64,000 nucleotides of DNA from Haloferax marisrubri (lineage in GTDB: Archaea; Halobacteriota; Halobacteria; Halobacteriales; Haloferacaceae), in contig NZ_LOPW02000022.1 in the NCBI RefSeq assembly GCF_001469875.2, positions 73,829 to 137,828 of the forward strand, given 5' to 3'. Below the pieces are notes generated by a model. It was not told the DNA's origin. It saw only the letters and a program-made list of their open reading frames with translations, and did not search any database. Of this stretch, positions 15,938 through 16,345 are shown piece by piece (within the stretch, counting starts at the first letter, position 1; each line of letters begins with the position of its first letter). A program made the translations under genes and the position numbers.

Positions 15938-16053
15938 GAGTCGCGGCGCGATGAGACGAGACGCGCCGCTCAGAATGTTGTGGCCGCGAGAAGCGCCGAG
16001 GGTGAGATTTGAACCTCACTCGCTCACCGTGTTCGCTCGCTGGTTCAAATCTC
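15938..16053 (+). repeat. tRNA-Ser 3' fragment repeat, copy I with hairpin
   Basis: 15938-16014 repeats 16210-16281 almost exactly (GAGTCGCGGCGCG start, CAGAATGTTGTG inside) and ends with the 3' part of the tRNA-Ser gene (GCCGAGGGTGAGATTTGAAC). The T-arm piece GAGATTTGAACC (16004-16015) is then matched by a perfect inverted copy GGTTCAAATCTC (16042-16053), forming a 12-base stem with a 26-base loop. Likely a remnant of duplication or integration at the tRNA gene. Confidence 0.7.
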
Positions 16054-16120
16054 GGGTCGTCGCAGATCCTCGTCACGCGGGGCGAGAGACACGAACGTCT
16101 CTCGCGAGGTGACGTTCGGA

Positions 16121-16186
16121 AGAAGCGCCGAGGGTGAGATTTGAACCGCAGTCGCTCCCATGCGGTCGCTCCTTGATTCAAATCTC
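16121..16186 (+). repeat. tRNA-Ser 3' fragment repeat, copy II with hairpin
   Basis: AGAAGCGCCGAGGGTGAGAT at 16121-16140 followed by TTGAAC again copies the tRNA 3' end plus five bases of its downstream flank. GAGATTTGAA (16136-16145) pairs with TTCAAATCTC (16177-16186). Copy II lacks the longer upstream repeat seen in copy I and at the real tRNA. Confidence 0.7.
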
Positions 16187-16209
16187 AGGACGTTACACAC
16201 GCGGCCACG

Positions 16210-16281
16210 GAGTCGCGGCGCGACGAGACGCGCCGCTCAGAATGTTGTGACCGCGAGAAGCGCCGAGGGTGAGATTTGAAC
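16210..16281 (+). repeat. Upstream repeat unit joined to the intact tRNA-Ser gene
   Basis: This unit matches 15938-16014 with a few changes (CGACGAGACG for CGATGAGACGAGACG; TGACC for TGGCC). It ends inside the genuine tRNA gene, so the repeated block includes both tRNA 3' sequence and its 3' flank. Confidence 0.7.
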
Positions 16282-16345
16282 TCACGTGTCCGAATGGACA
16301 GTAGATTTCGAATCTACCGCCTTGGCCGGGCTAGGCTACCTCGGC
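16261..16345 (-). tRNA. tRNA-Ser(CGA)
   Basis: On the minus strand, GCCGAGGTAGCCTAG opens the gene at 16345, the 7-base acceptor stem pairs with CCTCGGC (16262-16268) and the discriminator is G at 16261. The anticodon arm is GTAGA TTCGAAA TCTAC with anticodon CGA, reading UCG. A long variable arm (TGTCCATTCGGACA) marks a class II tRNA, which fits serine. T-arm GTGAG TTCAAAT CTCAC is canonical. No CCA is encoded and no intron is seen. Confidence 0.93.

Follow-up and report, generated by a model that had tools for sequence, protein, structure and literature searches.

Integron arrays consist of units stacked at a fixed point, and the attC site of such a unit is an imperfect palindrome with a folded core box, an unpaired spacer and a variable tip, according to the available part of PMC2727003, in which an attC site with a GAA tip is also mentioned. 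Archaeal elements with a tyrosine integrase are inserted inside the 3' ends of tRNA genes, the old end being left as a partial copy (as described in the accessible sections of PMC8371274 and PMC7921747); in elements of this kind the 3' end of the gene is directly repeated around the insert and the gene end is restored. PATEs, the IS605-related elements of Haloquadratum, are short, non-coding and haloarchaeal, with palindromes near both ends (PMC3119063, in the part available). The units described here are like each of these systems in the features named and differ from each in others. Integron cassettes carry genes and an integrase gene stands beside the array, whereas the haloarchaeal units carry no gene and no intI-type integrase gene adjoins the present array. 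The tRNA-targeting elements encode their own integrase, whereas the haloarchaeal units (about 85-180 nt) have none, possess an inverted arm and stack. PATEs are described as free of target duplication (again in the available part of PMC3119063), whereas the haloarchaeal units repeat the gene end and have arms that match the local target. Unlike integron cassettes, the units would be inserted at the 3' end of a tRNA gene or of aspS (aspartyl-tRNA synthetase) and would supply that gene with a new end, and a genome has many such loci, with a separate matching core at each; the predicted folding of the units is in line with a putative palindromic site that, like that of integrons, would have two boxes and an unpaired spacer. 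In the open-access literature, tRNA remnants beside full tRNA genes have been described, and hairpin units of this kind were not found.

The window, by which the whole stretch of DNA analysed is meant (64 kb; G000:C22:73829-137828, where G000 is the genome of Haloferax marisrubri), was scanned for an inverted and then a direct copy of a sequence with a further direct copy upstream, and the tRNA-Ser(CGA) array (Table 1) was the sole match. As the first-pass annotation had reported, the 3' end of this gene occurs twice more downstream. The copies span its last 22 bases, from the T-loop to the acceptor end, and the flank is repeated together with the gene end (a gap-free 68-nt repeat, family D1, with 94% identity). 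Read in the sense of the tRNA, three elements stand before each copy: a flank hairpin, then an inverted T-arm, then a small imperfect palindrome. Over the 275 nt 3' of the gene, folding is stronger than in shuffled sequences, both as RNA (z = -3.47) and as DNA (z = -3.07). No Rfam family besides tRNA was detected over the array, no phage record matched it, and the sole match among plasmid records was the tRNA itself. The nearest genes on its two sides are a nitroreductase-family gene and a MoxR-type ATPase gene. Judged from the sequence, the locus may be a two-unit array of small gene-less cassettes that were inserted serially, in the manner of integrons, at the 3' end of tRNA-Ser(CGA), and a probability of about 0.45 is given to this reading.

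Table 1. Features of the tRNA-Ser(CGA) array, in window positions, listed from the gene outwards in the sense of the tRNA.
Feature	Position	Strand	Basis
tRNA-Ser(CGA) gene, target gene	16260..16345	-	ARAGORN; Rfam RF00005, 58.6 bits
Core copy 0, functional T-loop to acceptor end of tRNA-Ser(CGA)	16260..16281	-	Sequence; reference for the copies
Proximal unit, flank hairpin H1 type A, trailer TTCT and nested stems	16188..16259	-	Sequence, folding; module common to congeners
Proximal unit, inverted T-arm	16175..16187	-	Sequence
Proximal unit, small imperfect palindrome, loop type iv	16147..16174	-	Sequence, folding
Displaced core copy I	16125..16146	-	21 nt identity, T-loop to acceptor
Distal unit, flank hairpin H1 type B	16055..16124	-	Sequence, folding; module common to congeners
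Distal unit, inverted T-arm	16042..16054	-	Sequence
Distal unit, small imperfect palindrome, loop type i, alternating 2 bp and 2x2 mismatches	16015..16041	-	Sequence, folding
Displaced core copy II	15993..16014	-	21 nt identity
Flank H1 type A, now after the last copy	15940..15992	-	Sequence repeat, congener comparison

When the congeners are set beside integron arrays, unit number is seen to vary, with states that have and states that lack units, and the order of flank modules differs. Behind tRNA-Ser(CGA) there are no units in G004, G007 and G011 and up to two elsewhere; in G004 and G007 flank H1 type A stands directly 3' of the tRNA. The flank order at this gene is A-B in G000 and G010 and B-A in G009, while loops ii and iii keep the same order in G009 and G010 though the flanks are swapped, so that modules recombine within units. 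At tRNA-Gly(CCC) the order is A-B-C in G000, C-B in G004 and A in G001, module C thus standing third in one genome and first in another. Permutation of whole units as a general rule was rejected because flanks and loops move apart at tRNA-Ser(CGA); it holds at best for tRNA-Gly(CCC).

The pattern is not confined to one gene. The own 3' end together with an inverted copy was found downstream of 23 of the 48 distinct tRNA genes of the H. marisrubri genome, as against 156 of 2244 pairings (7%) when the ends of other tRNA genes were swapped in as a control; at the strictest setting the figures were 16/48 and 6/2244, respectively. Two of the 23 positives are the upstream members of tandem Asp and Val pairs, which pick up the unit of their neighbour. 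The stems match the local tRNA, and the flank and loop modules are common to several loci. In a genome of a distant family (G024, with 42 tRNA genes), a unit was present at 12 of the 27 tRNA genes examined, with a swap rate of 13% and with one tRNA call without a T-loop dropped from the count. The hairpin pattern was detected in 228 of 292 sampled Halobacteria genomes, no match to the reversed pattern standing among the matches listed in the class-wide search, and in a sample of the phylum it was present in 44 of 53 Halobacteria versus 2 of 241 genomes outside the class. A tRNA gene lay at most about 300 nt from the hairpin in 27 of the 30 loci fetched by the class search. The units, of which the 22 tRNA units of the H. 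marisrubri genome measure 84-178 nt, are too short for genes or an integrase, and GAA or TTC hairpin tips are common among them. The 3' end of the target gene is directly repeated around the units, as tRNA copies or, for aspS, as copies beside an intact live end.

A loop module common to these loci, AGCGAGCAA...TTGCGAGTGAG, was searched for without any gene sequence. It was found at 30 sites in 30 fetched loci of the genus, 28 of them behind a tRNA gene, and at 60 sites in the genome collection, 7 in unrelated bacteria and 53 in haloarchaea. Among the haloarchaeal sites, 48 lie 35-462 nt behind a tRNA gene on the same strand, three lie behind aspS and two are truncated where the fetched stretch ends. 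At the 44 distinct sites compared, the T part of the copy (positions 53-65) showed about 4% mismatch to its tRNA, and the acceptor part (positions 66-73) was worse kept, with about 22% mismatch. The first-pass annotation had held that the same cassette behind many unrelated genes would speak against serial integration. The genes concerned are indeed many, but those seen are aspS and tRNA genes, and the ends match the particular gene in each case, which extends the idea of serial integration and does not refute it.

A second unit type, with hairpin arms that contain no gene sequence (e.g. GAGTCCC...GGGACTC) and with the hairpin directly before a copy that starts at the T-stem and not at the T-loop, occurs in the H. 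marisrubri genome behind Arg, Ala and Asp tRNA genes (L021, L024, L025 and L037). An orphan unit-like hairpin with repeated TCCGGCCCCA ends was also observed in this genome (L004, G000:C17:239667), with no tRNA within 1.5 kb.

For aspS, 33 loci were collected (30 from 60 family genomes, of which 59 matched, and 3 from the loop-module search), and the gene end was readable by the search expression in 23 of them, the other 10 being left out. At least one downstream copy of the gene end was present in 17 of the 23 readable loci and none in 6; without the three starting loci, which had been selected for holding a copy, the count is 14 of 20. The first copy encodes all 8 residues (DRQRLSP-stop) in 14 of the 17 loci. 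The peptide is kept in 22 copies; 15 of these have 4-9 bases changed relative to the live end and the other 7 have 1-2, the changes including TCG versus AGC for serine and TAG versus TAA as the stop; for copies with 6-9 changes, all-synonymous outcomes were obtained in 0-1 of 20,000 random-substitution trials. Detection by nucleotides only (14 of 24 identical) was rejected as too loose, with 51% of codon-shuffled controls matching and with 43 matches that held 282 base differences, 118 of them within changed codons; the peptide-keeping copies were therefore relied upon. Since copies sought by peptide favour synonymous ones, the stronger evidence is the number of synonymous changes, the contrast between tail and body of the gene, and the presence of differing units at one point.

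The tail-body contrast was estimated from third positions in five Haloferax aspS genes, in which divergence is 60% in the last 24 nt, 29% in the bin of 33-60 nt, which lies upstream of the core that is copied, and 7-21% in bins more than 60 nt away from the stop (about 12% at 60-120 nt). The contrast is weaker over all 23 genes, with 24.9% of all bases differing in the tail versus 9-18% beyond 60 nt. Between the aspS genes of L332 and L264, the body differs by 1.1% and the tail by 8 of 24 bases. The live end and flank of L332 (G092) align with the displaced copy 1 of L330, L248 and L264, with identities of 111/137, 114/141 and 114/140, respectively. Compared by eye, the live end of L332 differs by 2 of 33 bases each from copy 1 of L330 (H. 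marisrubri) and of L248 (H. larsenii); copy 1 of L264 (H. profundi) is homologous to it and more different. In front of copy 1, at the same base, L330, L248 and L264 have different units, and L332 has no first unit. L332 may represent the state before insertion or that after loss of a unit; whichever it is, different units appear to have arrived at one point. The H. marisrubri locus itself (G000:C22:66593-67475) lies outside the window, about 6.4 kb away; two further copies of the aspS 3' end follow the gene there, and copy 1 departs from the live end at 8 of 24 bases, all synonymously.

Because of the synonymous changes, the tail-body contrast and the differing units at one point, we read the displaced aspS copies as former functional ends that were probably pushed downstream by serial insertion. 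In one aspS locus (L340) a two-unit block is repeated nearly identically, and so is one unit of the H. massiliensis Tyr array (L253); both cases point to simple duplication besides insertion. Plain tandem duplication as the whole explanation for aspS was discarded, given that most copies differ by several synonymous bases. No known RNA family was found by Rfam at gathering scores in three aspS loci. Other protein genes were searched in 1.2 Mb of haloarchaeal loci, with 108 matches and none convincing besides aspS (40 were the aspS tail; the rest were tRNA copies read as ORFs, reverse-strand or tandem repeats, and chance), and in 400 kb of G024, with 11 matches to 2614 ORF ends and none convincing, aspS not being sought there.

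A unit runs from a copy of the 3' end of the target gene (the core) through a flank hairpin and an inverted copy of the core start to a small imperfect palindrome. In the 18 aspS units compared, the inverted arm fits the preceding copy in 8 and the following copy in 0, although 6 of these 8 decisive comparisons turn on one base; the remainder comprise 3 ties, 4 units with identical copies and 3 unjudgeable ones whose preceding copy is without that part, the arm fitting the following copy at 9/10 in one of these three. Despite the better fit to the preceding copy, the arm can now pair with the copy after it. The inverted T-arms which the annotation had noticed are present behind tRNA-Ser(CGA), but where it saw them as gained by the copies, the aspS arm matches the unit's own copy and so looks more like part of the unit. 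All six aspS units tried were predicted to fold as dumbbells, alone and as circles, one arm formed by the core start with the inverted arm and the other by a small hairpin with mismatches near the junction. Dumbbells were also predicted for 22 of 22 tRNA units of the H. marisrubri genome with both parameter sets, versus 115 of 440 shuffled sequences, a weak result because these units had been chosen for holding an inverted copy.

All the evidence for the cassette reading is comparative. That small cassettes were inserted serially, each bringing a new gene end, we consider well supported for aspS, as far as sequence comparison reaches, and likely for the tRNA genes, whose copies are too alike to tell the direction. 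The proposal of the annotation, serial integration at the tRNA 3' end, is accordingly upheld in its core, most clearly by the synonymous copies and differing units of the aspS arrays; what it took for the scars of one tRNA gene is a genome-wide and class-wide family of ORF-less units, which is also found behind a protein gene. From the unit anatomy and the match between the arm and its own core, we propose a tyrosine recombinase that acts on a folded single strand, as in integrons. The unit, as a single-stranded circle or its equivalent, would fold into a dumbbell, with one arm made by pairing of the inverted arm and the start of the unit's own core and the other supplied by the small palindrome, and would thereby present a complete recombination site across the point G/TTC. 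The recombinase would join the unit to the matching point of the gene, the core of the unit would become the new functional gene end, the old end would be displaced downstream, and the newest unit would stand next to the gene. We infer here a circular or single-stranded form, the recombinase, current activity and an origin of the tRNA arrays like that of the aspS arrays. The module swaps at tRNA-Ser(CGA), the raised divergence at 33-60 nt and the duplicated blocks count against the cassette reading, which also leaves the second unit type unexplained.

A candidate tyrosine recombinase, with the coordinates G000:C3:18539-19582 in H. marisrubri, has a single match in every one of 13 Halobacteria genomes, and the search gave none in 77 other genomes of the phylum (E<=1e-30). 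By the NCBI family models it is XerA/XerC-like, below their cut-offs (107.6 bits against the archaeal XerA model, with a cut-off of 220), and its Pfam phage-integrase domain scores above the cut-off; it may have another job, e.g. as a chromosome-dimer resolvase. A class-wide, gene-less, integron-like system, in which this type of conserved chromosomal recombinase would insert and swap single-stranded dumbbell cassettes of about 100 nt where tRNA genes and aspS end, with the gene ends repeatedly renewed, is conceivable, though we would sooner doubt it than assert it.

Integrases were searched in 13 genomes of the genus, from which 30 integrase loci were fetched, 5 of them with a tRNA gene within reach. 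No integrase-bearing element that ends in this hairpin was found in these genomes. There was no unit directly behind the tRNA nearest the integrase in L184, L191, L200 and L213; in L209 (G009:C17) the integrase gene is upstream of a tRNA and a hairpin unit is downstream of the same tRNA. Integrase genes stand close behind tRNA-Met, tRNA-Leu(TAG) and tRNA-Thr in the genus. Beside tRNA-Met and tRNA-Asn of H. marisrubri (G000:C22:260559-264859; L184, L197), three consecutive integrase-domain matches follow tRNA-Met with no unit between. A tRNA-Thr(CGT)-type unit adjoins an integrase gene in L237 (G007:C1, about 584935), where no tRNA was found nearby; an element may have been inserted between the tRNA and the unit. 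Near another integrase (L203, G008:C11), the ends of short ORFs recur identically at 66-75 nt, which is probably a simple tandem repeat. A viral origin was considered with 67 hairpin stretches of viral contigs and rejected, none looking haloarchaeal by GC content, tRNA content and sequence. Seven loci on high-GC viral contigs (L135, L143, L149, L163, L166, L178 and L182) have palindromic GGATTTGAACC repeats with CCTCTGG or a close form, which resemble a tRNA-type attachment site in inverted duplicate and are perhaps the ends of actinobacterial prophages.

The arrays could also have arisen with no dedicated recombinase, the gene ends being duplicated by replication slippage and palindrome correction and the arrays being swapped across strains and species as the repeated ends recombine homologously. 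Mating lets Haloferax species exchange long DNA tracts. The separate recombination of flank and loop modules at tRNA-Ser(CGA), which lowered our confidence in the cassette reading and raised that in homologous exchange, agrees with this explanation, as do the block and unit duplications in L340 and the Tyr array and the 7 of 22 peptide-keeping copies with just 1-2 changes; a crossover joining two arrays could move a functional copy downstream, and the state of L332 could result if a unit were lost. Slippage, however, makes copies that start identical, whereas 15 of the 22 differ by 4-9 synonymous bases, some with a change of serine box, and the replaced aspS tract looks short for homologous exchange, to judge from the steep fall of third-position divergence between the last 24 nt and the 60-120 nt bin. 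It also counts against this explanation that the same loop module stands behind different tRNA genes and aspS and, the two cut sites aside, nowhere else among the 53 haloarchaeal sites. Part of the pattern comes from homologous exchange between arrays, and its share may be larger than is allowed for here, but as the full account we hold this explanation to be rather unlikely.

Somewhat less probable still is that full-size integrase elements brought the replacement ends and were later deleted to a hairpin remnant, leaving the units as scars of ordinary integration. The integrase genes close behind three tRNA types and the one adjoining the tRNA-less Thr(CGT) unit of G007 are in keeping with such an origin, and for another Haloferax the accessible sections of PMC7921747 report integrative elements whose tRNA ends are duplicated, together with 11 partial tRNAs, several of them beside a full copy. 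Remnants of random deletion should not, on the other hand, have a common architecture, length range and loop sequences across loci and the whole class; the four element sides read directly behind tRNAs have no such hairpin, and neither a haloarchaeal-looking viral stretch nor a phage record matching the window array was obtained. It is improbable, at roughly the lowest level among these explanations, that the hairpins are transcribed elements behind tRNA genes and aspS which serve termination, the processing of 3' ends or regulation. For H. volcanii, the available part of PMC7237163 describes hairpins that lie upstream of termination sites, and the stable RNA fold and the better-kept T part of the copies fit such a role, but it would leave both the synonymous copies of gene ends and the absence of units at the same tRNA in relatives unexplained, and no Rfam family besides tRNA was matched. 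A regulatory mimicry of the T-arm, the other suggestion of the first-pass annotation, is unsupported because aspS has units and no T-arm.

Even if the mechanism proposed here is wrong, a class-wide repeat family that stands behind nearly half of the tRNA genes of a genome needs explaining, and so do, whatever the mechanism, the fossil copies of a gene's former ends. If serial insertion of gene-less cassettes is true, folded-site cassette recombination would exist in archaea, tied to tRNA genes and not to an integrase gene, and the 3' ends of genes could be exchanged repeatedly in nature. It would shed light on how site-specific recombination came to make use of tRNA genes and palindromic sites, and, Haloferax being a tractable laboratory archaeon, a genetic test would be ready at hand.
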